A stretch of 64,000 nucleotides of DNA from Geosiphon pyriformis (taxonomy: Eukaryota > Glomeromycota > Glomeromycetes > Archaeosporales > Geosiphonaceae). The stretch spans positions 311,341 through 375,340 of the forward strand of contig JAAOMT010000134.1 of assembly GCA_016748015.1 (NCBI GenBank), given 5' to 3'. The notes beneath the pieces are model-generated. The model searched no databases and had not been told where the DNA came from. It saw only the letters and a list, made by a program, of their open reading frames with translations. A program made the translations under genes and the position numbers. Below, one piece after another: positions 16,714-63,183 of this stretch; within the stretch, counting starts at the first letter, position 1, and each line of letters opens with the position of its first letter.

Positions 16714-16716
16714 CTG

Positions 16717-21545: not shown

Positions 21546-21588
21546 TTTTGAATAACTGTTGTTGGTGCTGGTTCTCTGTAGGATTATA

Positions 21589-24758: not shown

Positions 24759-25170
24759 AAAGCACTTCCAGGCCTGGATCTGAAACAACTTCCATAAAAT
24801 CATCAGTTTTACTTTTTCTTTTACATTTCTTTTATTCTCTTTCTTTTCTTATTATAAATTATTTGGGTAGCCTACAGATGAGAATTCCTGTAAAAGAGTT
24901 GACTTTTACAGCAAAGTAACTATACATTTTTAGTGAGCTTCCAGACAAGCAATTCCTGGGAAAAAGTTGACATTTACTACAACGTAACTATACAAAGTAA
25001 CTGGCACGGAATTGGCCATTCCACTTATAAGCCCAGCAGTTCAAATTATAGGAGATAATTTGAAGATAAATTCAGTTACTGGAGGATTTAACCACATCCA
25101 GAAAACGAAAATCCACAGCAAACAGGCATCAACAACATTTAAGAAAAGAGACCAAAAACCTCCAGTAACA

Positions 25171-27648: not shown

Positions 27649-27695
27649 TGTTACCCGAGTAGAAAAACCGATCCAAAGTTATGAAGAAATGTGAC

Positions 27696-27988
27696 CAAAA
27701 CATAACATAACACAGAATAATGCACAATAACGTTGGATAATGCATTATAACATAAGATAATGTGTTATAACGCAGGATAACACAGAATAGTGCGCAATAA
27801 TGTAGGATAATGTGTTATAATGCAGGATAACACAAAATAACATGTAATAATGTCAGATAATGTGTTATAACATAGGATAACTAGCAATAACATAGAAAAA
27901 TGAAGCAATAACAGAAACAACAAAGCAATAGCTAGTAATAGCAAGACAATTGAAAGCAATCCTGTAAAACCAAAAGAATGTATAAAAG
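27696..27988 (+). promoter_or_regulatory. U3 palindrome array and TATA box (family C)
   Basis: About 200 bp of near-repeats of GATAATGTGTTATAAC with CA/TG-rich spacers, then TATAAAAG at 27981-27988. Confidence 0.62.
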
Positions 27989-28247
27989 CAAGTAGTTGTA
28001 GAAGTGAGAAAAGACAAACAAATAGATACAAACCTCTAAACCAGAATTAAAATATCCATATCTCTTCATCCTTTATTATCTTCCCTATTTCATCTCCTGA
28101 AATAAACCAATTATTAAAGAAATCAGAATCACAAATTTATGTTCTCAAACTTCGTGGAATTTACGTGAATTAACCCTTGTCTTATACCTCCATTCTAGAA
28201 CAGATGCTCTTAGCATAACTGTCTCAAACCTATTAATAATTTGGACC

Positions 28248-28270
28248 AATCACTCTTGATCATGGTGATT
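28248..28270 (+). promoter_or_regulatory. Hairpin in family C LTR, covarying with family A
   Basis: AATCAC, loop TCTTGATCATG, GTGATT. Loop and flanks (TTGGA, ATACTAA) match family A, while two adjacent stem pairs are changed on both sides. Confidence 0.65.
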
Positions 28271-28731
28271 AATGATACTAATTTATCTTTTCTCTCTTTT
28301 CTTTTCTTTTCTTTTTCTTTTTCTTTCTTTTTCTGTCTTATTTTTGTGGAGTGGCAACATAGTAAAATTGACTGTCTGGGAATAGACTTCGTGATAGCCT
28401 GGTAAAAGAGGGAAGCTTCCCTTAAGTTTTGGATATTAACATTATCTTGTTAGCTTACCAAAAGGGCGAAAAGACAATGCCAGACCCTAACAACTGCGCT
28501 CGTTAGCTCAGAAAAGAAAGCTCACATTTATGAAAAATGTTGTAATCAACAAAAGACAAACTTTGTGTCTTATAACCAAAGAACTCAATAGATAAAATTC
28601 ACATTCAGGAATAGACTTTCAGAGACTGATAATCAAGACTAAGCCAACAGAATTACACAGAAAATGCATCATCAATAATTGAGAGCCCTCAATGTTACTA
28701 TTTCTCATACTTACCAAGTTTACCCATAACA

Positions 28732-32010: not shown

Positions 32011-32778
32011 TGTTACTTATAAAAAGAAAATAGATATAGAAAATAGCAGACCAATAAGAGAATAGTATTTAGCATATGAACACATTATTCAGCAATGTGA
32101 AGCAATGTCAGAAATCATGGCATATTGCTCAAGAAATCATAACACATTGCTTGGAAATGTGAGCAATCTCATAGAACATCAATTATGTATATATAGTAGT
32201 AGCATTAGAAGTAGAAAAGAGCAGAATCCTTTAGTTAGAAATCTCCAATTCACAAATATTGAATAAATAAATTATTTACCATCCAAATCCACTCTTTACT
32301 ATCTAAACTCCATGTTGATAGCAATTGATACTTAACCACATTGGAACAATAGCTCTTGATCATGACTATTGATGGATACTAACCTGTATATTGCCTTGGC
32401 TCATTTTTTTATGTTATTTCTTTTATTTTCTTGTTTAATTGTTGTTATTATTAACTCTATTGAGGATTAATGTGTGGGGTACTGACATCAAGATATAGCA
32501 CTGGTAAAAGACCCAAGAATAAGGGTAGGACACTCGATTGAGAATAGCTTACCAGGAGGAATACCAGCCATCAAGCTAAAAAAGAAATTGACAAAACTGT
32601 GGTTTCAGGAAGCTACAAATAAAACTATTACCACTGAATCTCTGTCTATTATACAAAAAACTCAACCAAAGCCTTCAGATAAACACACCTTCAGATATTA
32701 CTAACAACATTATATTAATTGAGCACCAAGTTACGGGTTTGTTATTTGTCTTGAGACTCCAAGTAATCACTTGTAACA
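32011..32778 (+). repeat. 5' LTR of Ret4 (768 bp, short array)
   Basis: Starts TGTTACTTATA, ends CTTGTAACA. The CATTGCTC-type array (32080-32165) is about 100 bp shorter than in the 3' LTR. TATA box near 32188; hairpin CAATAGC...ACTATTG at 32347-32371 with TGATCA in the loop; U5 octamer AGCACCAA at 32722-32729. Confidence 0.9.
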
Positions 32779-32838: not shown

Positions 32839-33181
32839 GTGGCAGAATCAGAAAATATAGGAGCAAACCATTTAGAATTTGCAAAATTCTTATTTCAACA
32901 CTACTGTCAACACTTAAGATTAATCCCAAATCACATACCAGCAGAATCAGCCTTCAACTTTTACGTCAACGAATAAAATGCCTACTTATTAAGAACAGCA
33001 ACAAATACTGAATCAGCAAAGAAAACTTTTTACAACAAATTAATCCAAAACAGCAGCTTACCAACAAACTATAATTTTGCATCCATCATCACTGAGATTA
33101 ATAAAAAAATTAAACATTACACACAACAGAGATACCCAATTACTTACGCAAGTAAAGACAAAAGAAAACTACAAACACCAA
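32839..33181 (+). pseudogene. Ret4 gag, N-terminal part
   Basis: GTG at 32839-32841 within GTGGCAGAATCAG opens AESENIGANHLEFAKFLF. The frame reads AESAFNFYVNE then a TAA, and ends KRKLQTP at the Ret5 insertion. It resumes at 43303 with AVTPQC. No AUG precedes the conserved block. Confidence 0.8.
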
Positions 33182-34039
33182 TGTTATGATTGAATATTTA
33201 GAGTTTCAAGTTAAATAACAAACCTGTAACTTGGTGCTTAAAAGTTATTTCTGTTGATGATATTCTGAAAGTGTTGTATCTGAAGGTTTTAATGGAGTAC
33301 TTTGTATAATAGACAGAGATTTAATAGTGCGGCAATTTGTCATTTGTTGTCAGTTGTTTTCCCAATTTCTTTCTCAGCTTGGTGGCCAGATTTATTCTGG
33401 CAGTTGTGCCCTTCTGGTAAGCTAACTGATAATATATATAAATCTACTCTTATTTCTGAGTCTTTTACCAGGCTATTCATAATGTCAATAACTTAATGCT
33501 TTTAATCCTCAATCAATTAGTATGTACAACAAAATCAAAGAAAGAAAGAAAAAAAAATAAAAAAAATAACAATGATGAAAATAAGCCAAGGCAATTTGGT
33601 AAGTTAGTATTTCGTCAATAGCCATGATTAAGAGCTATTATTCCAGCATAGTTAAGTATCAATTACTATCAACATGAAGTGTTGATAGTGGAGAATGGAT
33701 TGAGATATAAAATAATTGGGAACTGGAAGGTTGCTTAGATCAAATCTAAACTAAGAGATCTGTCTTTTTAGCTTCTAACACTACTGCTATATATACATAA
33801 TTAAAATTCCTCAATTTCTCGATTCTTTACAACAAGAATCTTGGAATTTCTGGAATCCTGTGATTCCTTTGAGAAAAATCCTGGAATTTTGGAATTCTGC
33901 AATTCTTTGTGTGAGAATTCTGTAATTCCTAAAATCCTGCAATTTTTGAAAAAAAATCCTGGAATTCTACATTTACTATATCTACTTCTGATTGGCTAAT
34001 AATTATGCTACTATATTTCCTATATTTCTATGAGTAGCA
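33182..34039 (-). repeat. 3' LTR of Ret5 (858 bp)
   Basis: Plus-strand left end TGTTATGATT, right end GAGTAGCA. The array of GGAATTCC/GGATTCC-like units is at 33808-33980 beside the TATA box (about 33788-33800). The hairpin CAATAGC...GCTATTA is at 33616-33640. The adjacent polypurine tract on the minus strand is AAAAGGAGGAAATAA. Confidence 0.9.
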
Positions 34040-34052
34040 TTATTTCCTCCTT

Positions 34053-34930
34053 TTAATATTAAGCTTTGTCAAAATCCAACTCTTTTAATTCCCCCTCTTG
34101 AAGTATCTCCTGGATTTTGTTTTCAATAATTACTTGTGTTATTTGAGTTTGTAATTCTTCAAATTGAGCATTGGTGATCTTTTCCAATTGATTACTGGTA
34201 ACCATATCCATTGCTTTGTTAAGTAAGTTTTCTGGTCGATCCTAAAATGCTGTGTGTATTTGGTATATAGTTCGAGCTTGTGTGAATAAATTATTTTTTC
34301 TCACAAAATGTTCTAGTTGTTGTAGTATTGTTGTGTCGAATAACTGCTTTGTTTTATCCATATATAAATTTTGAATATTTACGTGTTGTCCCAAGTAAAA
34401 ATAACAATAGTTTCTTGGAAATTGTTGTGTTTACCAATTCCAAGTTTCCTTAGTCAACTCTTGATATATTGACTCTTTTGTCAATTTTTTTATTGCCAAT
34501 TTTACTTTTGTAATGATTTTGTTGATAGTATTTTCTGGTTTCTTCTGTTTTCTGTGTTGCAATGTCTTTCTAGTATCTTGATATCGAATGGTTTATTGAT
34601 TGATTGTAATCTCCATTTCTTGGTGCTAGATCAATTGAAAAAGTTGTTGTGCTAGTGAGTGAATGTTGTCTGTAATCTCCATTTTTCTGATATTTCCTGT
34701 CATGTTTACCATGTCTTTATATATTCTTTTTGATGGATCAATTTAACGTGTTGTTGTCAATAATAATAATTGGTTCCAGATCTCGTGGAATCTCATCTGG
34801 TTGGACTATTATTCTCTGTACTCCTAATTGTGGAATATTATTAGTGGATGGTAGTGTAGTGTTGTGGTATGATTTCAGTCAATCTCTATGTGCTGCTTTG
34901 ATTAAAATTTTGTTGTCCAGTCTTAACTTG
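34053..34930 (-). pseudogene. Ret5 pol C-terminal extension
   Basis: The minus strand carries YFYLGQHVNIQNLYMDKTKQ, then LFDTTILQQLEHFVRKN, which keeps the pattern seen in Ret3 and Ret4 despite many substitutions. It ends LDFDKA, stop, Y, stop at 34053, just before the polypurine tract. Function unknown. Confidence 0.6.
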
Positions 34931-36198
34931 TAAGCTCTATTTCCTAGAATTTTTTTTATGTGAAATAGTCTATCCCATTTGAAATCGAATTTTTCACTCC
35001 ATTGTTTTTCCACTTTGGTATGATGTAAGAGTACTTTGTCTCCAATCTTGAATTCAACTGGTTTGTTTGGTAGTTGACTATTGTGTCTTTCTTTTTGTTT
35101 CTTTTGTGACTTCTGAATATTATCAGCTGCTCTTTTTCATTTGTTTTCTAATGTTTCCATTAAGTCATATGTTCTTCTCAGCAATGTTTCTTGAAAATTT
35201 TTTTCTGTTATTGGTTCAGCTGGATATGTATTAATTTTTTTTTCTACTGGTAAGGTTGCTGTTCTACCATATACTAATTCAAATAGTGTTACTTGTGTAA
35301 TATCTTGTTTTATTGTTCAATAAGCAAATAATACTGATGGTATGAACAAACCCCATTTGTCCTGGTTTTCTTGGCTGAGTTTGGCAATTGCTTTACACAA
35401 TGTTCTATTAAATCTTTCAACTAAATCATTTGTTTGTGGATGATATGGTGATGATAGTGGTCTCTTAATTCCGAATCTCTGGCTTAATTCTGCTAATGTT
35501 TTATTTACAAAGTGGGTTCCTTGGTCTGATAATAGTTTTTTTGGATATCTGTGTCAACAGATCAAATCTTGATGAATGAATTTGGCAACGGATTCTGCAT
35601 CCGCTCTTTGAATTGCTTTCGCCTCTGGCCATTTAGTGAGATAGTCCATAGCTACTGCTATATATCTGTTTCCTCTGCTGGTGATTGTTAATGGTCCGAC
35701 TAAATCAATTCCAATCCAATTAAATAGTTGTCCCACTTTGATTGGTCTTAATGGTTCACTGGGTCTTGTTTCTCTTCTTCACTGACAAGTGTCACAATTT
35801 TGAACATATTGGATGATGTCTAGATATATTGATGGCCAATAGTATCTTTTTCTGGTTCTTTCCATGGTTGCTTCTTTGTAAAAGTGTCTGGCTGTTGGAT
35901 TTGAATGCATGTTGAATAATATTGTCTTTTTTTCTGGCTCTGTAATTACTCTGGTTGGTTGATCTAGACTCTTCTATTTTTCTGATAAAGTATATTTTGG
36001 TAAGTGATAAAATATTTTGATTGTTGTTTGATTCTCTTTCATTTCGTTTGAGATAAATTCTCCTTGAACTGTTGAGTGTTTATATAATATTGGAGTTGTT
36101 GATATTTTTGTATGTTCATCTTTTGTTATTTTTCGTTGGTATTGTTCTGGTTTTGTTATATTTTTGGGTTGAAATGTTCTTAAATTTGTCTTATTCAT
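34931..36198 (-). pseudogene. Ret5 integrase
   Basis: Zinc region with CQ pairs decayed near 35785. The core piece 35736-35554 has IGIDLVGPLTITSRGNRYIAV and WPEAKAIQRADAESVAKFIHQ (given here as fragments of the segment). LLSDQGTHF with its Asp is near 35540-35515 and the Glu region LVERFNRTL near 35430-35405 appears kept. Stops at the tail of each piece. C-terminal part includes KVLLHHTKVEKQWSEKFD. Confidence 0.75.
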
Positions 36199-36713
36199 GA
36201 CAAACCATCAGCATTTCCATTGTCTTTTCCTTTCTTATAGTGTATAGTATAAGTATATCGTGATAGTGCCATTTTTCATCTGGATTGGTGGCCGTCATCA
36301 AATTTTTGCTTTTGAAGTAATGTTAACCCTTTATGATCCATGTATATATCAAACTTTTGGCTCAAGTATTCGTTTTACTTCATGACTGCCCAATAAATTG
36401 CCAAATGTTCTAGTTCTAGTGTTCCATAGTTCTTTTCGGCTGGTGTTAGACCTCGGCTGGCATATGCTACTGGATGTTCTTTGCCGTCTGGTCTCTTCTG
36501 AGATAGTATTGCTCTTAATGCTTGGCCTGATGTATTGGTAGTAATAATGAATGGTTTGTTGTGATCTGGATAGATCAGTACTGGAGCTTGAATAAGCTTT
36601 CTTTTCAGAATATCAAAAGCTTTTTGTTGACTTTCTGTCCATTCATATTTGGTATTCTTGGTTTGCAGATTATTAAGTGATCAAGCTATCTTTAAAAAGT
36701 TCTTTATAAAGTG
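36199..36713 (-). pseudogene. Ret5 RNase H
   Basis: The minus strand shows FIITTNTSGQALRAILSQK, where TDASG is expected, so the catalytic Asp is Asn. LTPAEKNYGTLELEHLAIYW retains the Glu. A stop follows near 36380. Confidence 0.72.
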
Positions 36714-37607
36714 TCAATAATAGCTTGTGAATCCCAAGAATGATTTCAATTCAGTCACATTGGTTGGTACTGGAAAGTTCTTTACTATCTCTATTTTTTT
36801 TGAATCTGTTTTGATGCCGTTTTTACTGACTATGTGTCCCAAGAATTTTAGTTCTGTCTTGTCAAAGAAGCACTTTGTTGCATTTAACTTTAGTCCTGCT
36901 CTTTTTAGCCTTTCAAACACTTGTTGAAGATAATAAAGATAATTATCAAATGTTTTTGAGAATACATTGGTGTTATCTAAGTATACAACTACTGATTTCC
37001 ACAATAAGCCAGTATAAACAATTTCTATTAGCCATTGGAAAGTGGCTGGGGCATTGGTTAAGCCAAAAGATATTACTTTAAATTTGAAATTCCTTTCTCT
37101 AGTAGTGAATGTCATCTTCTCTTTATTGGCTGGATCCATGACTACTTGCCAGTAACCACTATCTAAGTCTAATATTGAGAATCATTTGTTTCCACCAAAA
37201 GCGTCGAATAATTCCTGAATTCATAAAGTCGGGTAGCTGTCTCCATGAATTACACCGTTGAGTTTTTTGTAATCCACACAAAATCAGATTTTTCTATTCT
37301 TCTTATGGACAAGTATCACTGGTGATGACCATGGGCTCATAGATGGCTGGATTAGCCCATTGTCAAGCATTCGATTAATTTCTTGACAAATGATTTCATG
37401 GCTGGCTGGTGGTACCCTGTATGCTTGCTGTTTGATTGGCATTGCATCTCCAGTCTTGATTTGATGTTGGATGATGTCAGTTCTGCCAAATTTGTTTTCA
37501 CTGGCAAAGATGTCATTGAAATTGTTGAGTAACATCTTGAGCTGCATATGTTGTAGTGGGTCTAGATTTCTTATGTTCATTTGTTCTAATTGTTCTGGTT
37601 GGAGCAA
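36714..37607 (-). pseudogene. Ret5 reverse transcriptase
   Basis: Two open pieces, 37607-37284 and 37139-36714, separated by decayed sequence. Motifs: connector LLNNFNDIFASENKFGRTD, LIQPSMSPWSSPVILV, FKVISFGLTNAPATFQW and YLDNTNVFSKTF, where the second catalytic Asp of YLDD is Asn (GAC to AAC). Confidence 0.82.
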
Positions 37608-38470
37608 ATAACATTTGTCTCATCCATAAATTGTTTGTGATATGATGTCGACATATGCACAAAGTTGTGGAAAGTCTGGAATGGGGTTTGGTTGTTGGTC
37701 TTCTATTTTTGTAATTAAATATCTGATGGTGATTCCTTCTGGTATGTTGATGACTTTGCCAGTGTAGTTGTAGATGAGAATTTTTATGCAGCTATAGCTC
37801 TTGGCTAGTATGTGAAGATTGATCAGTTCAATCTCTTCTGATTCACAAAGGTTTGCTTCAGCTTCAAAAATCTGTTCTTGCTCCTTTTCCTTTTTTTCTA
37901 TTGCTAGCATGTACTGGCTATATGGTGGAATGGAAATAGCTTGACCAGTTGAGATAATTTCTCCTTGGCCAACAATTTCTTCCTCTGCCATATTAACTAG
38001 TACCTCTATTCTACCCATTGACCCAAATCCCTGTATCCTTCTTGCTGTTATTCCCAATTCCTCCCTTGTTCCCACTTCCACTAAGCTGGCTATTTTGACT
38101 AATGGCAGGAATATGGCCTGTGCTATCTTTTCATTTGGCTCAATTATATAGGCCTTTTCTGAGTTATTTTGTAGCATGGCACTGATATTTTCTGTATATT
38201 CTGCATCTACTATTCCCCCTTTAATATTAATCCTCTTCTTTGCTAAACTACTCCTAGATGCTAAAAGAACCATGGTTGTTGTTGGAATCTCTAGAGCTAT
38301 TTTCAAATCAATGCATACTCATGCGTTTGGTTCCAATTTGATGACATCTTTTCCTGGATATCTTAGATCAAACTCTGCATCTGTATTATGCATATATTCC
38401 TACATGATACCTTCATCATTATGACTAAACCATTTAAGCTTTTTTTTTTTAGAGAGGTCAGGGAGTGCGA
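37608..38470 (-). pseudogene. Ret5 dUTPase domain and linker
   Basis: Motif 1 is near 38390-38350 (AEFDLRYPGKDV), motif 2 ASRSSLAKK, motif 3 GGIVDAEYTEN (Asp kept, both Gly lost), motif 4 EKIAQAIFLPL, motif 5 RRIQGFGSMGR. The open piece 38306-37620 is the longest for this domain outside Ret3 and Ret4. The C-terminal part has IPEGITIRYLITKIEDQ before RT. Confidence 0.82.
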
Positions 38471-38525
38471 TATATTGTTCGCAGTTTAAATTGGGATTTG
38501 AATCTGAGTTGGAGTCATTGCCATT

Positions 38526-39310
38526 TTAAATGGAGCTGGAACCATTATTCTTGTCGTCATTGTTGTCAGAGTTTGAATCAGGATCGAATGGTAATTCTGA
38601 CTCTGATGTGCAGCTGCTGATTGGTTTTTTTTTTTCGGAGATCATGTAGATCATGCATGGTAGTGGATTGTAAATAAGATTACAATCGTCACAATATTCA
38701 AAATTACTGAGAATTAAACAATAACAATACAGTCTTGTATTCAACTGTGCTAGCCATTGTTCTTGCTCCTCTCTAGTGAGTGCCAAGTTTTGGTAGTGCT
38801 TATAGAACTCTTCTGGTTCCAAAAAATTTATGACTGGCTTTATGTCCCAGTCAAGCTTGATGGGTTCTGGTGAGTTGTTTTTAATTGTCCTGATTTCTTC
38901 TGGCAATGCATCTTCAATTTTGGCGATTACCATTTGCCATAATTCATTGTCATCATGTGGACAACTGTCCAATCACTGTACAGCTCTTCTCCAGGCAGCT
39001 TCTATTGGTGTCCTTTTCTCGACCCAGTTGCTAATGAAGATCGTGTATTGGCAGGAAACATCGCATGTTCTTTTTCTCCCAGAAATGTTGTTCCACATTC
39101 TTTTGTTGAGAAGAGTTTTTCCACAGGCTAGACATGGTGTATTATCCCATTTTCCCACTCATTTTGGTCTTCCAAAACATTCAATGAGGCATGCATGGCA
39201 ATAGAACTTGGTTGCCATCTGATATTCTTCGTTGTCATCACAGCATGTGCCCATTGATAACAATTTTTTGTTGCAATCAATGCATATCAGTTTGGGTCGG
39301 CAATAGGTTG
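38526..39310 (-). pseudogene. Ret5 cysteine-rich module
   Basis: Minus-strand cysteines: KLICIDCNKK, GTCCDDNEEY, KFYCHACLIECFGRPK, a TGA at a former Arg/Gln, then TPCLACGKTLLNKRMWNN, RKRTCDVSCQYTIF and, further on, YCYCLILSNFEYCDDCNL. An acidic Ser/Asp/Asn linker leads to the dUTPase. This is the best preserved copy of the module. No known domain recognised. Confidence 0.65.
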
Positions 39311-39719
39311 ATGATTGTTGTTGACCATAGGTGTATAAGATATAAGTGTTGTTGGCTTGAGTGTTTTCTTCCTCCCTCTCTTTCCCTTTTCCCTTTTCTT
39401 CTTTCTACTCCCAACTTGATGGTTCTTCCTGTTCGTTGTTGGTCCAGATCAAATCATCTGTCTCCCAGATCAGTTCCTCTTTTTGCTTTCCCTTGGGGTT
39501 GTCATTCTATGAGAGTATTAACAGCAGTTTGTTGTGGTTTGGATCGGCCCATAAGACTTGGTAGGCTTCCCAAGTAGGTTTTGTCTATTCTTCGAAGTCA
39601 ATTAGTGGTGCTAATAAGTTGGTGGTCTTGAAGTGACCACATGTGACTGGTATTTGTGTGTGTCATTCATTCTAACTGAGCTGGAGTTCTTGTGTGATTC
39701 AGTTGAACACAGCGTTGGT

Positions 39720-40313
39720 TTTAATTAGCCAATTATTACCAACTAGTGCTTGGTACTAAGTTGTTTTCATTACCAAGACTTTAATAAGGGTGATGATGCC
39801 ATTAACTTCAATTGGGAAGTCGTCAATTTCGCCAATAAGCATTTTCGTGGCACCATCTGCAGTGATGATTCTAGTACTGGCAGTTTGATCAACTTGGCAA
39901 CTTAATTGATTCATGAATTGCTTGGTAATGATGCTGCCTGCTGAATCACTATCAAGGATGAGTTTAATAGGGTGTCCATCTACTTTTGCATTAGTGTACA
40001 TTGCTGTGATGGGTTTTTCTTCAAGAATGGCTCCACTGAATAGTGGTAATTGGAATGGCTTTTCAAGTTCAAAAGAGAAGATGGCTGCTAATGATCTATT
40101 ATTAGTGACAGTTGCTGGTGGGATGTTGTTGGTAAGTGTTGTCTGTTGGTTAGATTCCAAGTTGCTGGATGTGGCATCTTCTGAAGTGACCAGAAGACTT
40201 AAATAGTGTTGAGAATTTGGGTTTTGGGTGGTACCAGTACCCGAATTCTGCTGCCAACATTCTATTTGCTGGTTTGATAAACTGGGGATCAGTTGGTGAA
40301 CTATCATTGCCAA
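39720..40313 (-). pseudogene. Ret5 aspartic protease
   Basis: Reads HPIKLILDSDSAGSIITKQF, with the catalytic Asp kept but Gly of DSG now Asp. It continues through GATKMLIGEIDDFPIEVNGI to a stop near 39756 and YQALVGNNWL. Upstream is a Ser/Thr/Gln-rich linker. Confidence 0.82.
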
Positions 40314-42368
40314 TCTCTAATTTTGAGTAATTCTAAGTCTTGGGTTTCCTGATGTTATAGTAGCTGAGTTTTTGGGGTGGTGTTTGAATTGGTTGGGGTT
40401 AATAGATCACTTGAGACAGCTAATAGATTATTTGTGGCTGCAGTGAATAAATTGTTGGGTTTTGATAAACTGGAGGTTGATATACTGGTGGTTGATAGAT
40501 TGGTTGCTGTGTTATTAGTAGGTAAGTGGTTTGATATTGTGTTAAGTTTGATTGATGATTCAGAGTTGAGAACTGGCGATCAGGGTTTCGATATTGATTT
40601 TCCGATTGTTGGTTATTTAAACGCTGGCAGCAGTCAAGTTGAATATGTCCTTGTTTACCATAATAGTGGCAGATACGTGTTTTCTGTTGTCACTGTTGAT
40701 TGGTCGATGAAGATAAACGTGGTTGATTTTGGCCATGATTAGAGTTTCCTTGATTATTGCATTGTTGTGCAGGCTGATAAATGACGTGATTGTTAGCTAA
40801 GTATTCTTCTAATCTCTTATTAATTGATTCACTGAACTTCTCCAATTTGGAATCCAATTTAGATGATCCATTCATTACTAAATTAATGGCTTGGGCATGG
40901 TTGGCTTCTGACTCAGTAGATTCAAAATCTCTGGCGCATATGACTGTATCTTGAAGTGTGCCTGGATGCAATGGATGTACATGTTGCAAAATGCTGCTGC
41001 ACAGGCCATGAATAAACTGGTTGAGAATCTGTGGTGCTGTGAAATAGTTGGTGTTAATTGCTTGAATTTGGCACAGATTTCGATGGAAGCATTCCAGGTA
41101 AGTGGTGACTGCTTCAGTTTCTCCTTGTTTCATAGTGGTGAATGTGTTGACTAGGTGATTAATGCTGTTATTGTTGCTGAAGTATCTTAGGAATTCCACT
41201 TTGAAGGCATTAAAATCTTGTGGTTTATTAATCAAGCTCTGGTATCATGAATTGGTGGTATTCTTGAGAAAGTAGGAAATGGCTTGCATTGCTTAGGCGT
41301 CATTCCATCCATTGGCTGCGATGGTCTTTTCTACATCATTCAGCCATACTTGAGTGTCATCTTCTTCGCCAGTAAAGTTGTCAAGTTTTGTGATTAGTGC
41401 ATAGGCCATTGGATCTAAGTTGAGTGGTTGTGGTGGCTGTTGAAGTAGTTGTTGAAGAGGTAACAGTTGTTGGGATGGTACTTGAGGTGGTTAAATTGGC
41501 TCACCAATTGGCTCAATTGGTGGTTGATTAATGACAATAACTGGAGGTAGGTTTTGCTAATGAATTAACTCAGGGTTTTGATTTCTTTAATTTGACAGAG
41601 TTTGAATATTTGGCATTTCAATTTCTAAATTTTCTAAATGTTGCTGAGTTTAAATGTTCTGATCTTCTAGGATTGGGTTTTGGTAATTGAATTCCTGATC
41701 CTTGTCTTTTTCTTTTTCTGATTCAGTAATTTCCCAAGGACTGACAGTTCCGAAATCTGGCTGATGAGATGGTAATTAAAATCCTGATGGTGTTGGTGAT
41801 CTTGATTTAAATTCTTCAAAATAATTGTCATATGCTCCTAATAGTTCATTTTTCTTTTGTTTACTCTAAAACGCAATTTTTGCTAATGGCATCTTTGTAC
41901 TGGTGAACACGTTTGCTGATGCAATGTTGATAATACTTCCGGGCATGTGATAGTATGATGGATATATTGGAGATTCAATTCTTTGTTTCTTCTAGTTAGG
42001 AATTTGTATTCCTTTGGGTGTTACTGCTGGTGTCTGTAGTTTTTCTTTGCCTTGTCTTGATAAGTAATAGGGAATATTCTTTGTGTATATCTTTCAATTT
42101 CTTGGTTGATTTCTTTGATGATAGGTGCAAAGCTGTAATTTCTTGGTAAGTTAGTGTGTTGGATTAGTTCCGAATAGAAATTTTCTCTTGCTGATTCAAT
42201 GTCAACTGGTCTTCCTAGGAAATCTGTGATTTTTTTGTTGACGTAGAAATTGAAAGCTGATTCTGCTGGGTAATGGTTGTTGTTTAGGCCTAGCTGTTGG
42301 CTGTACTGTTGAAATAAAAATTTCACAAATCCTAAATAGTTTGTCTCTATTATTTCTGATTCTGCCAC
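40314..42368 (-). pseudogene. Ret5 gag with CCHC knuckle
   Basis: It begins at GTG (42368-42366): VAESEIIETNYLGFVKF, LGRPVDIESARENFYSELIQ. The capsid-like part (41235-40690) has EFLRYFSNNNSINHLV, TYLECFHRNLCQIQA and NQFIHGLCSSILQHV. The knuckle near 40660-40610 reads CHYYGKQGHIQLDC with the second Cys as Tyr. Capsid and N-terminal region are in different frames, so indels are present. Confidence 0.82.
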
Positions 42369-42430
42369 TTTTGGTTTGGTGTTGTCGGTGCTGGTTTTCT
42401 GTAGGATTATACCTCACAGAGAGCACCAAA

Positions 42431-43302
42431 TGTTATGATTGAATATTTGGAGTCTCAAGTCAAATAACAAACCCATAATTTGATGCTCAAAAGTTATTTC
42501 CGTTGATGATATTCTGAAAGTGTTGTATCTGAAGGTTTTGATGGAGTTCTTTGTATAATAGACAGAGATTCAATAGTGCAGCAATTTGTCATTTGTTGTC
42601 AGTTGTTTTTCCAATTTTTTTTTCAGCTGGGTGGCTGAATTTATTCTGGCAGTTGTGCCCTTCTGGTAAACTAACTGATAATATATATAAATCTACCCTT
42701 ATTTCTGGGTCTTTTACCAGGCTATCCGTGACGTCAATAACTTAGTGCTTTTAATCCTCAATTAATTAATATGCACAACAAAATCAAAGAAAGAAAAAAA
42801 ATAAAATAAAGAAAATAACAATAATGAAAATAAGTCAAGACAATTTGGTAAGTTAGTATTTTGTCAATAGCCATGATCAAGAGCTATTGTTCCAGCATGG
42901 TTAAGTATCAATTACTATCAACATGAAGTGTTGATAGTGGAGAGTAGATTAAGATATAAAATAATTATTTATTTAATAATTGGAAACTAGAAGATTGCTT
43001 AGATCAAATCTAAACTGAGAGGTCTGTCTTTTCAGCTTCTAATACTACTGCTATATATACATAATTGAGATTTCTCAATTCTTTGATTCTTCATGACAGG
43101 AATCCTGGAATTCCTGGAATCCTGCAATTCTTTTGAGAGAAATCTTGCAATTCTGGAATCCTGCAATTCCTTGTGTAAGAATCCTGTAATTTCTGGAATC
43201 CTGCAATTCCTGAGAGAAATCCTGGAATTCCATATTTACTATGTCTACTTCTGATTGGCTAATAATCATGCTACTATATTTCCTATATTTCTATAAGTAA
43301 CA
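42431..43302 (-). repeat. 5' LTR of Ret5 (872 bp)
   Basis: Plus-strand ends TGTTATGATT and AAGTAACA. TATA box 43051-43060 (minus strand GTATATATAG), array of GGAATTCC-type units 43068-43235, hairpins 42865-42889 (CAATAGC/GCTATTG, TGATCA in loop) and 42915-42937 (CTATCAACA/TGTTGATAG). Confidence 0.92.
43051..43235 (-). promoter_or_regulatory. U3 palindrome array and TATA box (family A variant, GGAATTCC type)
   Basis: On the minus strand GGAATTCCAGGATTCC-like units precede GTATATATAG. The flanking LTR sequence is family A (CCAATCAGAAGTAG beside the array; GCAGTAGTATTAGAA after TATA), but the array is unrelated to the CATTGCTC type. Confidence 0.65.
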
Positions 43303-44660: not shown

Positions 44661-45135
44661 AGAAACACAAATTTGCCACAGCTGTGGTAAACAAGGTTAC
44701 CTTAGAGCCAATTGCTGTGTTTATAGTAACCAACAATCGGGAAATCAATATCAAAACCCTGATTACCAGTTTCCAACTTCGAGTTACCAATCCAACCCAG
44801 CCCCATATCAACTAACTTATCTACCAATAATACAACAGCCAATATATCAACCACCCATATATCAACCTCCAGTTTATTAACTGCAACCACTGATAATATA
44901 TCAACCATTACAGCCACAAATAATTTATCAGACATCCACAGTTCAAACATTGCCATCAAACTCAGCTCAAATGACATCAAGAAACCCTAGATCAAGAGTC
45001 ATCCAAAACTGGAGATTGGCGATGGTTATTCACCAACCAATCTCCAATTTATTCACCCAGCTGTCAGAATTATGACAAAGGAGTTCAAGAACCAGGTATA
45101 CTCAAAACCTGAGTTCCCAGAACTATTTAAGCCTT
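44661..45135 (+). pseudogene. Ret4 CCHC knuckle and Tyr/Gln/Pro-rich linker
   Basis: CHSCGKQGYLRANC (44678-44719) keeps its Cys residues but the His is Tyr. A linker of YQPP/IYQ repeats (about 44820-44940) follows. It links gag with protease in the same frame. Confidence 0.72.
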
Positions 45136-45627
45136 TTGGCTACCTTAGAAGATGCCTCACCCAACACTTGTGAACCCAAACAGAAGCAATCACTTACCAA
45201 TATTCTACCAGCTACTGTCATGGAAGACGAGTCTCTAGCAGCTATATTTCTTTTCAAAATTGAGAAACCAATAGAAACTCTTTTGTTCAGTGAAGCCGCA
45301 CTCGAGAAACAACCTATCACAGTGATGTACACAGATGCCAAAATTGATGGTCAGTCCATTAAACTGATTCTAGATAGTGGATCAGCAGGCAGCATCATTA
45401 CAAGACAGCTCATAGACCAATTAAGTCACCGAGTTAATCGAGCTGCTAGTGTAAGGATAATTACTGCTGATAGAACCACCAAGACTCCAATTGGTGAAAT
45501 AAATAACTTGCCCATAGAAATCAATGACATCACAGTACCAATCAAGATATTAGTCATGGAAGCTACCCAATACCAAGCACTGGTGGGTAATGACTGGCTG
45601 TTCAAAATCAATGCGACACTCAATTAG
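45136..45627 (+). pseudogene. Ret4 aspartic protease, catalytic motif intact
   Basis: QSIKLILDSGSAGSIITRQL contains the undamaged DSGSAGS. It ends YQALVGNDWLFKINATLN before a TAA at 45625-45627, where Trp is expected. The downstream linker contains a run of ten A (about 45746-45755) across which the frame changes relative to the rest of pol. Confidence 0.85.
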
Positions 45628-46859: not shown

Positions 46860-47752
46860 TTATTGCACTTCCTGATCTCACTAAGGAACAGGAATTTAAA
46901 TAGTTCAGCAATAATGGCAAAGGTATCATGCCAGAGCATATGCATAATACTAATGCAGGGTTTGATCTAAGATATCCAGGGAAAGATGCCATCAAACTAG
47001 AGCCACATTTATGCACCTGCATCGATTTGAAAATAGCATTGGAAATACCAGCAACAACCATGATTCAACTAGCTTTCAGAAGTAGTTTAGCAAAAAAAAG
47101 GATTACTATAAGAGAAGAAATAATTGACACCAGATATGTGGGAAATATCATGGCAATACTACAAAATAACTCAGAAAAGACCTATATCATAGAACTCAAT
47201 GAAAAGATAGCACAGGCAATATTTCTGCCTCTGGTTAGAGTAGCTCAGTTAGTATCAGTGAGAAAAAGGGAAGAATTAGAGATAACAACTAGAGGAATAC
47301 AGGAATTCGAATCCACAGATAGAATAGATGTACCAGTTAATATGGCAGAAGAAAAAATGATTGGCCAAGGAGAAATTATCTCAACTGGTCAAGTAATTTC
47401 TATTCCACCATATGACCAGTATATAATAATTATAGAGAGAAAGGTGAAAGATAAGGATCAAATTTTTGAAGCAGAAACAAGCCTTTGTGAATCAGGAGAG
47501 ATTGGATTCATCAATCTCCACATACCAACCAAAAACCACAACCATATCAAAATTTCCATTTACAACACCACAGAAGATGACATCACAATACCAGAGGGAA
47601 CTATCATTGAATACATAAGCACTGAATTAGAAAATCAACCACCAAGCATTATTCCAGACTTTCCACAGCTATGTAAATATGTAGATATTACGTCACAAAC
47701 AATCTACAGACAAAATGAATGTTATTTGCTCCAACCAGAACAATTGAAATAA
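46860..47752 (+). pseudogene. Ret4 dUTPase domain and linker (274 open codons)
   Basis: Motif 1 DAGFDLRYPGKDAIKLEP, motif 2 FRSSLAKKRI, motif 3 EEIIDTRYVGN (Asp kept; Gly residues replaced by Glu and Arg), motif 4 EKIAQAIFLPL, motif 5 RGIQEFESTDR (two Gly replaced). This is the longest continuous family A dUTPase segment here. It continues through LCESGEIGFINLHIP and IPEGTIIEYISTE to a TAA at the EQLEQM site. Catalysis is doubtful without the glycine-rich motif. Confidence 0.85.
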
Positions 47753-48650: not shown

Positions 48651-49150
48651 AACCACTCAATTATTTCTAAACCAAGAATGTGAAATACAAATGGATAGAA
48701 GCACAACAAGAAGCTTTTGATATTCTAAAAAGAAAGCTTATACAAGCTCCAATACTGATTTATTCAGATCACAATAAACCATTTATCATTACTACCGACA
48801 CATCAGGCCAAGCATTGGGAGTGGTACTATCACAGAGAAGACCAGATGGAAAAAAACATTCAGTCACATATGCCAGCCAAGATTTAACTCCAGCTAAAAA
48901 AAATTATGGAACACCAGAACTAGAACATTTAGCAATTTATTGGGCAGTCATGAAATAGAAAGAATACTTGAGCCAGAAGTTTGAGATGTATACAGATCAC
49001 AAAGGACTGACATTACTCCAAAAACAAAAATTTGGAGATGGCAGACAATCCAAATGAAAAATGGCACTCTCGCCATATACTTATACCATATATTATAAAA
49101 AGGGAAAAGACAATGGAAATGCAGATGGTTTGTTACAAATAAGACAAATC
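48651..49150 (+). pseudogene. Ret4 RNase H
   Basis: Open piece 48680-48958 has FIITTDTSGQALGVVLSQR with the Asp kept and LTPAKKNYGTPELEHLAIYW with the Glu kept. A stop at 48956-48958 precedes KEYLSQKFEMYTDHKGLT, which holds the third Asp. Confidence 0.8.
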
Positions 49151-49399
49151 TAAGAACATTCAACCCAAAAATATAACAAAATCAAACCAAATCCAACAAA
49201 AATATAACAAAAGATGAACACACAAAAATACCAACAATTTAAACATTATATAGATACTCAGCAGTTTAAGGAGAAATTATCTTAATCAGAACGAAATAGT
49301 ATCAAACAATAATCAAAATATTTTATCACTCACCAAAACATACTTTATTGGAAAAATAGACAAAATTCAGATCAACCAACTAGAGTAGTTACAGAACCA

Positions 49400-50200
49400 G
49401 AGAAAGAAACAATACTGTTCAACATGTACTCAGATCCAACAGCAGGACATTTCCACAAAGAAGCAATCATGGAAAGAACCAGAAAAAAATACTATTGGCC
49501 ATCAATGTATCCAGACATCATCCAATATGTTCAAAATTATGATTTTTGTCAAAGAAAAGAAGGAACAAAACCCAGTGAACTACTGAGACCAATCAAAGTC
49601 AGACAACCATTTGATTGCATTGGAATTAACTTAATCAGACCATTAACAATTACCAGCAAAGGAAATAGATATATTGCAGTAGCCATGGACTATCTCACTA
49701 AATGACCAGAAGCAAAAGCAATTCAAAGAGTGGATGCAGAATTTGTTGCCAAATTTATTTATCAAGATCTGATTTGTCAACATAGATGTCTAAAAGAATT
49801 ATTATCAGACCAAGGAACTCACTTTGTGAACAGAACACTAGTAGAATTGAGCCAAAGATTCGGAATTAAAAGACCACTATTATCACTATATCATCCATAA
49901 ACAAATGGTTTAGTTAAAAGATTTAATAGAACATTGTGTGAAGCAATCGCCAAACTCAGCCAAAAAAACCAGGATGAATGGAATTTGTTTATACCATTAG
50001 TATTATTTGCTTATTAGACAATAAAACAAGACACTACACAAGTAACACCATTTGAATTAGTATACAGTAGAACAGCAACATTACCAGTCGAGATAGAAGT
50101 CAACACTTATCCAACAGAACTAATAACTAAAGACAATTTTCAGAAAACGTTGCTAAGAAGAACATATGACTTGATAGAAACTCTAAAAAACAAGCAATAA
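49400..50200 (+). pseudogene. Ret4 integrase, triad damaged
   Basis: Zinc region HFHKEA...NYDFCQRK (one Cys is Tyr). Core: GINLIRPLTI, where the first catalytic Asp is Asn; LLSDQGTHF with the second Asp; GLVKRFNRTL with Lys for the catalytic Glu. All three changes are G-to-A. The C-terminal part has FELVYSRTATLPVE. Confidence 0.82.
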
Positions 50201-51286
50201 AAAGCAGCTGATAACATCCAAAAATCACAAGAGAAACAAAAAAAGAGACATGATAACCAACTACCAAACAAACCAGTTAAATTCAAGATTAGAGACAAAG
50301 TACTTCTACATCATACTAAAGCAAAAAAACAATGGAGTGAAAAATTTGACCCCAAATGGGATGGACCATTTCACATTGAAAAAATTCTTGAAAATGGAGC
50401 TTATAAATTAAGATTGAACAACAAAATCTTGACCAAAGCAGCACATGGTGATTGACTGAAACCATATTACCAAATAGCATCATCATTCACCAATAATATT
50501 TCACAATTAAAAGTACAATGAATACTAGTTCAATTAGACAAGATTCCACGAAATCTGGAACCAATCATAATCATTAAACCAAACACATAAAATCAAACAA
50601 TAAAAGAGTATATAAAAACACAGTATACATGATAAAGGCAACCAAGAAAAATAAAAATACCAGATCAGATTCACACAATAGCTTAACAATTGTTTCAGGC
50701 TTTAAGTCAACAACAGTTAGATATAGAAATTATTATTAATAACCAAACAATTTGCTATCAAAACACCAAAAGAATAACAAAGAATACACCATATCAGCGT
50801 TCACCAAAGAATGATAAAAACTGGTCAGATAACATAATTGAAAAAGTAAAAAACACTTTTGGAAAATTACCTATTATGGTACCAACAAAAGAACTTACAA
50901 AAGAGAATTGGAAGCAATAAACAAAACAACTTCCAATATCATACTGTTACTACCAATTAGGTCAAAAGTTGAATATTCAGGAATTGTATATTGACAAATC
51001 CAAGAGAGTATTTAACCAAAACATAATACAGCAAATTGAAAAATTCATTGGGAAAAAGATAAACTCAACACTATATGTGATAACAATTTATTGACTGCAC
51101 AACATATTTCAAAACTATCCAGAAATACTGTTACACTCTGATATGGAAACCATATCCATTAACCAATGGAAAAGAATGAACAATACACAAGTAGAAGACA
51201 TAAAGAACAGAGTTGAACAAACAATACTTGAAAAAGAAGTATTAGAATTAATTCAAAATGAAGATTTCGATGGAGCTCAATATTAA
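50201..51286 (+). pseudogene. Ret4 integrase C terminus and pol C-terminal extension
   Basis: KVLLHHTKAKKQWSEKFDP and GAYKLRLNNKIL form the SH3-like integrase tail. Then comes a conserved extension: NIIEKVKNTFGKLPI, YQLGQKLNIQELYIDKSKR, FNQNIIQQIEKFIGKK and a final EDFDGAQY plus TAA at 51284-51286. It ends against the polypurine tract AGGAGGAGATAA. Function unknown. Confidence 0.65.
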
Positions 51287-51367
51287 AGGAGGAGATAATG
51301 TTACTCATAAAAAGAAAATAGATATGAAAAATAGCAGACCAATAAGAGAATAGTATTTAGTATGTGA

Positions 51368-51584
51368 ACACATTGCTTAACAATGTGAAACAATATCAGA
51401 AATCATGACATATTGCTTAACAATATGGAGCAATGTCAGAAAACACAGCATATTGCTCAACAATATAGAGCAATATTAGAAAATTAGAGCATATCGCTCA
51501 GCAATGTGAGCATTGCTCAAGAAATCATAACACATTACTCGGAAATATAAGTGATCTTGTAGAACATCAATTATGTATATATAG
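51368..51584 (+). promoter_or_regulatory. U3 palindrome array and TATA box (family A, CATTGCTC type)
   Basis: Tandem, imperfect units of CACATTGCTCAGCAATGTG with dyad symmetry fill 51368-51553, followed by TATATATAG at 51576-51584. Decay has changed several CATTGC to CATATTGC. It is the likely promoter-enhancer of the element; function is inferred from position. Confidence 0.65.
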
Positions 51585-51686
51585 TAGTAGCATTAGAAAT
51601 AAAAAAGGGCAAAATCCTTTAGTTAGAAATCTCCAATTCACAAATATTGAATAAATAAATTATTTACCATCCAAATCCACTCTTCA

Positions 51687-51759
51687 CTATCAACATTCCA
51701 TGTTGATAGCAATTGATACTTAACCACACTAGAACAATAGCTCTTGATCACAGCTATTA
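51687..51759 (+). promoter_or_regulatory. Two hairpins in the transcribed LTR leader
   Basis: Hairpin 1 (51687-51709): CTATCAACA, 5-base loop, TGTTGATAG, a perfect 9-bp stem. Hairpin 2 (51735-51759): CAATAGC, loop containing TGATCA, GCTATTA. Both recur in the other family A LTRs, and hairpin 2 has a covarying counterpart in the family C LTR. Confidence 0.7.
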
Positions 51760-52166
51760 ACAAATACTAACTTGCACATTGCCTTGGCTCATTTTTTTAT
51801 GTCATTTCTTTTATTTTCTTGTTTAATTGTTGTTATTACTAACTCTATTGAGGATTAACATGCAGGGTACTAATGTCAGGATATAGCACTGGTAAAAGAC
51901 CCAAGAATAAGAGTAGGACACTCAATTGAGGATAGCTTACCAGGAGGAATACTGGCCATCAAGCTGAGAAAAAAATTGATGAAACTGAGGTTTCGGGAAG
52001 CTATGGATAAAACTATTACCACTGAATCTTTGTCTATTATACAAAGGACTCAACCAAAGCCTTCAGATAAACACACCTTCAGATATTACTAACAACATTA
52101 TATCAATTGAGCACCAAATTACGGGTTTGTTATTTGCCTTGAGACCCCAAGTAATTACTTGTAACA

Positions 52167-53340
52167 ATGGTTATTACCAATAGTACTAGTTTGGAAGAAA
52201 AATAGAAAGATTTATTTTTGTGTGGATTACAAAAAACTCAACAGTATTACTCATAAAAATAGTTATCCAACTTCACAAATCTAAGAATTATTCAATGCTT
52301 TTGGAGAAAAGAAATGATTTTCTACATTAGATTTGAATAGTGGTTATTGGCAAGTAGTCATAAATCTAGCTGACAAAGAGAAAACAACATTCACTATACA
52401 AGAAAAAAATTTTAAATTTGATGTTATGCCATTTGGTTTAATAAATACACCAGCCACTTTTCAATGGCTTATGAAAATCATTTATACTGGACTATTATAG
52501 AAATCAATAGTAATATACTTGAATAACACCAATGTATTTTCAAAAACATTTAATGATCATTTCTATCATCTTTAGCAAGTGTTTAAGAAATTAAGAAGAG
52601 CTGGATTAAACTAAATACAAACAAGTGTTTCTTTGGCAAAACAGAACTGAAATTTTTGGAACATATTATAAGTAAAAACAGCATCAAAATAGATCCAGAC
52701 AAGATTGAAATTGTCAAAAACTTTCCAGTACCAACAAATCTCACAGAATTAAGAGGATTCTTGGAATTTGCTAAATACTATTGTTACTTTATCCAAAACT
52801 TTTTCAAACTAACTTAATTATTTTATTAGCTTTAAGCCAAGACTGTGAAATATGAATGAACTAAAGCTCAACAAAAAGCTTTTGACATTTTAAGAAAAAA
52901 ACTTATTCAAGCCCCAATATTGATCTATTTGGATTACAGCAAATCATTCATTATTACTATTAATACATTAAATTAAGCATTAAGAGCTGTATTGTTCAAA
53001 AAAAACCAAATAAAAGAGAACACTCAGTAGTATATATTAGCTAAAACTCAAGTTCAGCTAAAAAAAACTATAAAACTTCAGCATTAGAACATTTGGCTAT
53101 CTATTGGGTTGTTATTAAATAAAAAAAATACTTAAGTCAAAAGTTTGATATATACATTAATCACAAAGAATTAACATCAATCCAAAAACAAAAATTTAAA
53201 GACAACTGCCATGCAAGATAAAAAATAGAACTTTCACTATTTAATTATATAATATATTATAAAAAAGAAAAAAAAACAGAAATGCTAACAGTTTGTCATA
53301 AATAAAACAAATCTAAAAACATTTTAACCCAAAAATATAA
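52167..53340 (+). pseudogene. Ret1 RT and RNase H, heavily decayed
   Basis: Resumes LLPIVLVWKKNRKIYFCVDY and DLNSGYWQVV. The catalytic YLDD is YLNN (about 52510), both Asp codons changed. RNase H FIITINTLN has also lost its Asp. Stops replace Trp throughout. Confidence 0.8.
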
Positions 53341-55440: not shown

Positions 55441-56438
55441 TATTACTCATAGAAAAAAATACAAAAGAAATAAAAAGAAAAACAGATAAAAAAAATAGAC
55501 CAATAAAAAAATAGTATTGAGCATATGAGCATATTGCTGGTAAATTATGGCATATTGCTCAGAAAAATAAGCAATGTCAGTAGATTAAAGCATATTGTTT
55601 AGCAATGTAAATAATGTTAATAGATTAGAACACATGTGAGCATTGCTTGAGAAATTATAGCATATTGCTTATGAATGTATAAAATCTCATAGAACATCAA
55701 TTATATATATATAATAAGAATATTAGAAGCAAAAAAAACAAAATTAATAGCTAGAACTTACAATTAAAATTTCTGCTTAAAAAACACAATTAGAAACAGT
55801 TCAAAATCTATACACATGTTAATAAATTATCAATTACCACTTGAATTCATGTTATTATCACTTGATTAAAAAAATATTAAAACATTTTTACTTTATTAAC
55901 ACTCTATATTGATAGAATTTAATACTTAATCACTTTAAAACAATAGCTCTTAATTATGACTATTGACAAAATACTGATTTTTTATTTTTTTTTATTTTTT
56001 ATTTATTTATTTTTATTTATTTTTTTTTGTTTCATTGATTTATTAACTGATTAAAAAGATTAACATACAGAGCATTAATGTCAAAATATAGCACTGATAA
56101 AAGATTCAGGAATAAGGATAGATATTTATAATTGAGAATAGCTTATCAGAAGATACCAGCCACCAAGCTAAGAAAAAAATTGACAGAATATAGATATTTC
56201 AAGAAGCAACAAACAATAAAGCACACTAACTCAAGAGTTAAGAAAACACTAAAAACATTACTAAAGAATATTACTATTGAATCTCTGTTCATTATATAAA
56301 AGACTTAACCAGAATCTTCAGATTATATAAATCTTTAAATCAATCTACACTTTCAGATATTATTTATTATATTACTTATTAAACACCAAATTATAAGTTT
56401 GTTATTTGTATTAACACCCCAAATAATCACTTGTAACA
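55441..56438 (+). repeat. 3' LTR of Ret1 (998 bp)
   Basis: Starts TATTACTCATAG (TG now TA) and ends CTTGTAACA. It shares insert sequences such as GCATATTGCTGGTAAATTATG with 6642-7609 and not with the other family A LTRs, which identifies the pair. Confidence 0.87.
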
Positions 56439-62282: not shown

Positions 62283-63183
62283 TGTTACTCATAGAAATAT
62301 AGGAAATATATTAGCATGATTATTAGCCAATCAGAAGTAGGCATAGTAAATGTGGAATTCCAGGATTCTTCTCAGGAATTGCAAGATTTCAAGAATTTCA
62401 GGATTCTCCAATGAGGAATTGCAGGATTCCAGAATTCCAGAATTCCTCTCATAGGAATCGCAAGATTTCAGGAATTCCAGGATTCCTGTCATGAAGAATC
62501 GAGGAATTGAGGAATCTCAATTATGTATATATAGCAGTAGTATTAGAAACAGAAAAAACAGAATTGATAAGACAGAATTTTTAGTCCAGAACAGAAATCA
62601 TCAAATAAATAAATATTTCATATCTCAAAACCACTCTCCACTATCAATACTTTATGTTGATAGTAATTGATACTTAACCACATTGGAACAATAGCTCTTT
62701 ATCACGGCTATTAATGAGATACTAACAAATTGCCTTGGCTTATTTTCTCTATTTTCTTTATTTTTATTTTTCTTTATTTTATTTTCTTTCTTTCTGTGAT
62801 TTTGTTGTTGTATACTAATTGATTAAAAAGATTAAGCACTGGGTTATCAATGTCAAAGATAGTCTGGTAAAAGACCCAGAAATAAGGGTAGGATTTTATA
62901 TATTATTAGATAACTTACTAGAAGGGCACGACTACCAGACTAAATCCAGCCACCATGCTGAGAAAGAAATTGGGAAAACTCTTGGAAAGATACATCTACT
63001 ATCAACACTATTGAATCTCTGTCTATTATACAAAGGACTCCATCAAAACCTTCAGATACAACACCTTTAGATACAAAATCTTCAAATATAACACTTATAG
63101 AATATCATCAATGGAAATAGCTTTCAAGTACCAAGTTACAGATTTGTTATTTAATTCAACAGCAGAAATAATCACCTATAACA
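62283..63183 (+). repeat. 5' LTR of Ret6 (901 bp)
   Basis: Starts TGTTACTCATAG, ends CTATAACA. The array is at 62352-62518, TATATATAG directly after, hairpin 1 at 62641-62663 (CTATCAATA/TGTTGATAG) and hairpin 2 at 62689-62713 (CAATAGC/GCTATTA; loop palindrome lost). Confidence 0.9.

Follow-up and report, generated by a model that had tools for sequence, protein, structure and literature searches.

The accessible part of the Sirevirus report describes 13 elements with element-specific palindromic motifs. Of 127 LTR copies, 117 are found in the upper LTR half, and according to a figure legend these motifs stand upstream of the TATA box (PMC2829016). Groups of Tnt1 elements differ in U3 and conserve RNase H, a pattern that the available text calls modular evolution and discusses as escape from host control (PMC1838419). 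BII boxes in the Tnt1 promoter bind defence-induced factors, according to a further paper (PMC3316501). ONSEN/COPIA78 LTRs have repeatedly gained and duplicated host-factor sites of the form nTTCnnGAAn in evolution, as stated in the excerpted study (PMC5059998). A preliminary description of the arrays treated here knew of no account of such an exchangeable array, a claim that cannot stand because the Sirevirus LTR arrays and the Tnt1 U3 modules precede it (PMC2829016; PMC1838419). Among the listed papers on arbuscular mycorrhizal or other fungi, none pointed to such LTR arrays, which is weak evidence of absence.

The DNA analysed here (the window) is 64 kb long, belongs to an AT-rich, probably fungal genome of 124.7 Mb (406 contigs), and contains nested LTR retrotransposons whose LTRs start with TGTTA and end with TAACA. 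Five groups of LTRs, A, A', B, C, and D, carry arrays. Genome searches, one of five for each group, provided 30 copies of A, 20 of A', and 12 each of B, C, and D (86 loci, L001-L086). Each search scored approximately 40 candidates and returned the most query-like ones, with array lengths biased towards the query, and the 1009 to 3328 first-look candidates per search are rough figures and not copy numbers. The LTR start pattern missed L021 and L085, for which a default start entered the later counts. LTR orientation could be fixed because a polypurine tract (PPT) directly precedes the LTR start. By eye, about half of the 30 genomic A copies have such a tract directly 5' of the start, as do several copies of each of the groups A', B, C, and D. 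This test places the group B LTRs (8576-9266 and 26443-27133) on the minus strand.

The traits of Ty3/Gypsy elements are present, namely TG...CA LTRs after a polypurine tract and gag, protease, reverse transcriptase (RT), RNase H (RH), and integrase (INT) in the order RT-RH-INT. Open reading frames in three bodies, two of A and one of A', match gag, aspartyl protease, RT, RNase H, and integrase, and the order is RT-RH-INT wherever the complete set was detected. Therefore, these three elements are Ty3/Gypsy-type, a domain-based assignment that covers the A and A' bodies. The A element at 12436-22300 has minus-strand matches to RT (15829-16716), RNase H (15442-15828), and the integrase zinc domain (14923-15294). 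The A element ending at 52166 matches protease (45076-45627; best Ty3-type match Peptidase_A2B), RNase H (48671-48958), and integrase (49313-49705). The A' element at 33176-43302 matches gag (40690-41244), with a protease also present, RT (36714-37181), and, below the cut-off, the integrase core (35317-35553). Additionally, a dUTPase domain (PF00692) is found in the body of the A element ending at 52166 (46904-47752, plus strand, E 4e-20), in A element 12436-22300 (17284-18138, minus strand, E 5.9e-5), and in A' element 33176-43302 (37620-38318, minus strand, E 2.5e-17). This domain precedes RT in elements 12436-22300 and 33176-43302 and follows the protease in 33176-43302 and in the element ending at 52166. 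A dUTPase has already been described in fungal Gypsy elements, according to the accessible part of that work (PMC2864245). Rfam gave no hit at gathering score in the whole window and none up to E=1 in 51560-52200, and ARAGORN (bacterial code) reported zero tRNAs in the window.

The LTR that first drew attention is a group A LTR of 868 bp (51299-52166, plus strand; TGTTAC...GTAACA), recognized by its ends and by self-BLAST and directly preceded by a polypurine tract (51285-51298, plus strand). Its U3 head holds a CCAAT box (51339-51343, plus strand), and its array (51367-51549, plus strand) consists of five dyad units that start at 51369, 51409, 51449, 51490, and 51531, the last one degenerate. 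TRF detects a tandem array of period 40 at 51367-51540 (score 153). The TATA box TATATATA is located at 51576-51583 (plus strand), 277 bp from the LTR start; the TATA pattern also accepted ATGTATAT three bases earlier, which gives 274 instead of 277 for A copies. The A motif quoted in the preliminary description is not found exactly in this interval, where the unit reads CATTGCTTAACAATG with two mismatches; the exact motif occurs at 4447. With at most two mismatches, the A motif has 12 matches in the window, against a shuffle mean of 0.07.

Further A arrays lie on the plus strand at 4438-4508 (two clear dyad units; solo LTR 4375-5199), 6742-6883 (LTR 6642-7609), 32080-32151 (shortened; LTR 32011-32778), and 55546-55680 (degenerate; LTR ending at 56438), and on the minus strand at 13056-13160 (LTR 12436-13232, the 3' LTR of a minus-strand element). 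The A' arrays, with GGAAT/ATTCC, occupy 62354-62515 on the plus strand (LTR 62283-63183) and 43100-43229 and 33837-33966 on the minus strand (LTRs 42424-43302 and 33176-34039), and the A' motif with at most three mismatches has 22 matches against 0.33 in shuffles. Both B arrays are on the minus strand in solo LTRs, one with six 12-bp units at 9107-9178 (LTR 8576-9266), after which TATATAAG follows at 9087-9094 on the same strand, and one at 26975-27043 (LTR 26443-27133). The C array has a 10/20-bp period (27697-27901, plus strand; solo LTR 27649-28731; TATA 27981-27988). The D array consists of four direct units of 20-21 bp that are not palindromic (24433-24507, plus strand; solo LTR 24196-25170; TATA 24558-24565). 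The D motif has 11 matches against 8.0 in shuffles, 17 of 100 shuffles reaching 11, and four of the 11 stand in tandem at 24433-24507. The solo D LTR is flanked by a possible 4-bp target duplication, CCAA (24192-24195 and 25171-25174).

All five groups carry a group-specific tandem array in the stretch from the LTR start to the TATA box. The statement that all arrays lie 5' of the TATA box is thus borne out, for B only if read on the minus strand. The stronger statement that an array stands upstream of every LTR TATA box meets an exception in LTR 21610-22300 (minus strand), whose U3 (22199-22300; TATA 22199-22206, 94 bp from the start) is without an array. This is the 5' LTR of element 12436-22300, whose 3' LTR (12436-13232) has one; the aligned parts of this LTR pair are 93.8% identical. 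Since both LTRs of an element are alike at the outset, the array was lost or gained after insertion.

Among the fetched, query-like copies, each group has an almost fixed spacing from LTR start to TATA box. It is 274 in 20 of 28 measurable A copies (range 263-279), 242-243 in all 20 A' copies, 330 in 10 of 10 C copies, 356-361 in 12 of 12 D copies, and 172 in 8 of 11 B copies. The other B spacings are 160, 171, and 184 (one copy each), 160 and 184 corresponding to one 12-bp unit less or more. The A LTRs of the window vary more than the fetched copies, with TATA offsets of 157, 177, 199, 259, 276, and 277. A B-type array in L011 (2901-3020) has 10 units of 12 bp, compared with about six in the window copies, a case of unit gain or loss. 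Autocorrelation in the first 10 copies per group gives periods of 40 for A, 8 and 39-40 for A', 12 for B, 10/20/50 for C, and 20/41 for D. Helical phasing is not claimed: the A, C, and D periods are near multiples of 10 bp, but B has a period of 12 and A' an 8-bp sub-period.

Dyad symmetry was measured as the number of bases in inverted repeats with arms of at least 6, relative to dinucleotide shuffles, in 83 of 86 copies (L014, L058, and L059, in which the TATA pattern had no match, were left out). Group A arrays contain 69.8 dyad bases vs. 11.8 in shuffles (28 of 29 copies with p<0.05), with 28.9 in their own R segment. The corresponding values are 56.1 vs. 12.0 for C (9 of 10 copies; R 19.8) and 18.2 vs. 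3.1 for B (7 of 12 copies; R 6.3). A' arrays exceed shuffles (33.1 vs. 14.1; 6 of 20 copies) and are hardly above their own R segment (26.6). D has 0 dyad bases vs. 2.4 in shuffles, and none of its 12 copies reaches p<0.05. Permuting the columns of the unit keeps the tandem structure (first 10 copies per group, 200 permutations). The observed dyads were reached by no permutation for A or A'; for C, by none at period 20 and by one at period 10; for B, by 12-15 at period 12 and by a single one at period 24; and for D, by 194-200 of the 200. The arrays had been introduced as palindromic, a term that suits A and C strongly and A' fairly, is doubtful or marginal for B, and fails for D, a direct repeat.

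By their 200-nt TATA/R region, the six array-bearing A LTRs of the window form three clusters, with identities of 44-52% between clusters and 67-92% within, and in each of the six, one or more units agree with the A dyad at all 19 positions when transitions are allowed. The dyad is therefore kept across LTRs whose R regions are about half identical. This persistence argument is limited to six window LTRs in three R clusters and does not separate selection from recombination that could have spread one array.

Array length varies, by whole units in B and widely among the A LTRs of the window; L011 has reached ten B units, one of two sister LTRs of element 12436-22300 has no array, and D is without a dyad. 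Such features would be expected of neutral minisatellites, generated in U3 by slippage or recombination, in which dyads are chance features multiplied with the unit. This origin is nevertheless unlikely, given that the array occupies the same place 5' of the TATA box in all five groups and that column permutation with the tandem structure kept rejects chance dyads for A, A', and C. The persistence of the A unit in LTRs with such divergent R regions likewise argues against it. Moreover, TRF (period of at least 8) found 80 tandem arrays elsewhere in the 86 loci that are mostly of other types: by eye, about 18 are further copies of the five types, and the remainder are mostly AT-rich or pyrimidine-rich, together with a 15-bp repeat near the LTR end.

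Arrays of sites 5' of a TATA box are the usual layout of an upstream activating region, and we therefore consider it likely that each array acts as an upstream activating (enhancer) module, specific to its group, in LTR promoters of the Ty3/Gypsy type, with host proteins binding the units and driving transcription from the TATA box. The preliminary description had suggested a modular enhancer. This idea gains support from the U3 position of the arrays, their tandem multiplicity and symmetry, the persistence of the A dyad, the difference in history described below, and array replacement between related elements, a sequence basis that falls short of proof. We infer binding, activation, factor identity, and the mode of exchange. 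Host sequence-specific proteins would bind the array cooperatively, as dimers on the dyad units of A and C, and would recruit RNA polymerase II to the TATA box, probably assisted by a CCAAT factor in A and A'. Several points count against the enhancer reading: D units are not dyads, B is marginal, CCAAT is less common outside A and A', and the fetched copies look old because putative LTR pairs differ by about 10%. In three such pairs, inferred from place and strand, 81 of 84 differences are transitions.

Each of four arrays is rich in a short motif. GCAAT/ATTGC occurs 9.59 times per A array vs. 2.16 in shuffles, GGAAT/ATTCC 12.7 times per A' array vs. 1.63, TGATCA 2.75 times per B array vs. 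0.24, and GTTAT/ATAAC 12.7 times per C array vs. 1.37. A 25-base pattern of the A unit has 253 occurrences in the genome and none when read backwards. CCAAT occurs in the U3 head of 29 of the 30 A copies and of all 20 A' copies, mostly at one offset; among the 12 copies each of B, C, and D, it occurs in 0, 4, and 8 heads, respectively. GCAAT is presumably linked to C/EBP-like proteins and GGAAT, we assume, to TEA proteins. The genome encodes DNA-binding domains of the HSF type (nine matched stretches) and the TEA type (two matched stretches), and a protein of either type is a candidate for binding the A' array, as a lead only. Two-part GAA/TTC sites number 2.40 per A' copy vs. 0.53 in shuffles, and three-part sites do not exceed 0.5 per A' copy. 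LTRs with heat-shock elements have three or more contiguous GAA/TTC pentamers, a trait that A' arrays as a group do not show, and full heat-shock elements in A' were rejected, the enrichment being confined to two-part sites.

Alternatively, the dyads could form cruciforms or, since the transcript has U3 at its 3' end, hairpins in the RNA, with a role such as that of a small-RNA source or of a packaging or stability element. The arrays do fold better than shuffles, with z-scores of -3.65 for A, -3.46 for A', -2.89 for B, and -4.13 for C, compared with -1.25, -1.92, 0.08, and -0.17 for the respective R segments (first 12 copies per group, 10 for C), and palindromic clusters of maize Sirevirus are reported to attract small RNAs, according to the available part of that report (PMC10760457). 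However, a folding z-score cannot separate a protein site from a hairpin, as a dyad folds in either role, and the D array has zero dyads and a folding z-score of +0.35. Covariation among 151 A units from 30 copies decides against selection for hairpins in group A. Summed over seven pairs, 878 Watson-Crick pairs form within units. Reshuffling the arms inside each copy gives 872.7 +/- 5.0 (878 is reached in 343 of 2000 reshufflings), and reshuffling them between copies, with the unit index kept, gives 881.6 +/- 4.7 (1614 of 2000). For one of the eight pairs in the A dyad, that of positions 7 and 13, pairing is more frequent inside the same unit than between units (0.662 vs. 0.590), but overall compensation between the dyad arms is absent in group A, the only group covered. 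Because of this and because most changes are transitions, the A arms must decay largely independently after insertion. These results apply to the resident copies of group A, and they speak against hairpins being maintained there. A hairpin role for the arrays is thus quite improbable. The suggestion of a hairpin array had been right about the folding of A, A', B, and C, and it finds neither compensation in A arms overall nor dyads or stable folding in D.

A separate 25-nt hairpin occurs in R, at 51735-51759 (plus strand) and at homologous places in A, A', and C LTRs, with the form CAATAGC-loop TCTTGATCAYG-GCTATTG. A degenerate pattern finds it in all 62 loci of A, A', and C. Its pair 5-21 is A-T in 50 of 50 A and A' copies and T-A (5), C-G (3), T-G (2), or C-A (2) in the 12 C copies. 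Unlike what is seen in the U3 arrays, this is a compensatory change between families, and the R hairpin may be a leader or packaging structure. After it, at approximately 51765-51825 and homologous places, TACTAA (or a near match) and then a long run of pyrimidines are present in the inspected copies of A, A', and C (10 each). This arrangement resembles a 3' splice site with its branch point or, alternatively, a CT-rich tract of a promoter.

Along the 3' parts of three elements, identity between A and A' is 0.80-0.83 and then 0.71-0.72 in upstream internal sequence, 0.56-0.58 in the last 500 bp before the PPT, 0.51-0.54 in the U3 head, and 0.26-0.41 in the array. It is 0.57-0.74 at the start of TATA/R, 0.65-0.68 in R, and 0.57-0.65 in U5; in one of the two comparisons between A and A', there is almost no rise at the TATA box (0.56 before the PPT, 0.57 at TATA). 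The profile between two A elements is 0.80, 0.85, 0.86, and 0.81, then 0.43 in the array, where unit number differs, and 0.68-0.72 thereafter. Pairwise alignment of A and A' arrays gives 0.34-0.39, vs. a shuffled mean of 0.30 and a maximum of 0.40, the latter computed for the A/A' pair only. The arrays had been called unrelated in sequence, and B, C, and D are indeed not above 0.40 with each other or with A and A', save that the A array of LTR 51299-52166 scores 0.45 with C, which we read as shared AT-rich composition.

Thus, the block from late internal sequence to array seems to have a history of its own that differs from that of its neighbours, which fits recombination between related elements; alternatively, the same block may have diverged fast in place. 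Exchange of the 3'-internal/U3 block would probably proceed by recombination or by template switching between co-packaged RNAs. One can tentatively imagine a single Ty3/Gypsy lineage that exchanges a cassette, and thereby shifts from one host transcription factor to another, unrelated one, but retains TATA/R and the upstream body, so that co-resident families would divide host regulatory niches by whole-array exchange. The cassette would comprise the last ~500 bp of internal sequence and U3 up to the array. We regard this scenario as possible but clearly not the likelier course.

Replacement of the array between A and A' would also fit escape from repression, with the arrays as sites of repression or insulation, either host silencers or an insulator similar to that of the Drosophila gypsy element. 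Decay of the copies is compatible with silencing: 84-94% of the substitutions between LTR copies (all 86 loci) are transitions, the fraction of CpG cells with C>T is 0.28-0.37 in A, A', C, and D, with none in B, and CpG observed/expected in the window is 0.16, which together suggest strong DNA methylation of these LTRs. With C>T at 0.07-0.21 in other contexts, methylation-type decay seems to reach beyond CpG. Methylation of transposable elements is treated in Rhizophagus, in the accessible part of one study (PMC8647823). However, a purely repressive site should be lost, and the dyad is kept in the six array-bearing A LTRs of the window, which makes repression or insulation highly improbable as the role of the arrays.

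With the arrays taken as probable activating modules, what is new here is a Ty3/Gypsy, probably fungal, case of an already-known array type. Tnt1 is a Ty1/Copia element. As in Tnt1, the related elements A and A' have a similar coding part and R with an unrelated U3, and in the available Tnt1 text the difference, mainly in U3, is interpreted as a way to evade host control or to adapt to it. Tnt1 differs in its Solanaceae hosts and in that its regulation, as far as the excerpted sources go, was established by experiment, whereas the present case is known from sequence alone. Relative to ONSEN/COPIA78, A' is enriched in two-part and not in three-part GAA/TTC sites. The picture of LTR promoter evolution is unchanged by these arrays, whose sequences could be used as baits for the host DNA-binding proteins that these elements employ.

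The likeness to Sireviruses extends to several features in the accessible part of that report: element-specific palindromes, at least eight copies per element, a place in the upper LTR half 5' of the TATA box, motif sequences that differ between elements, and discussion as cis-acting transcriptional activators (PMC2829016). A palindromic motif cluster 5' of the TATA box is clear in A and C, weaker in A' and B, and absent from D. Sireviruses alone are Ty1/Copia elements of plants with a CGG-CCG core in all but one, and their motifs often also stand before the ENV gene and border CpG islands, again according to the available text (PMC2829016). The elements described here have Ty3-type domains and domain order, their units are AT-rich and by eye without a CGG-CCG core, and one group (D) has direct repeats only. 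The plant precedent of palindromic arrays 5' of the LTR TATA box is thereby extended to Ty3/Gypsy elements of a probably early-diverging fungus, in which five unrelated arrays stand side by side in one genome.
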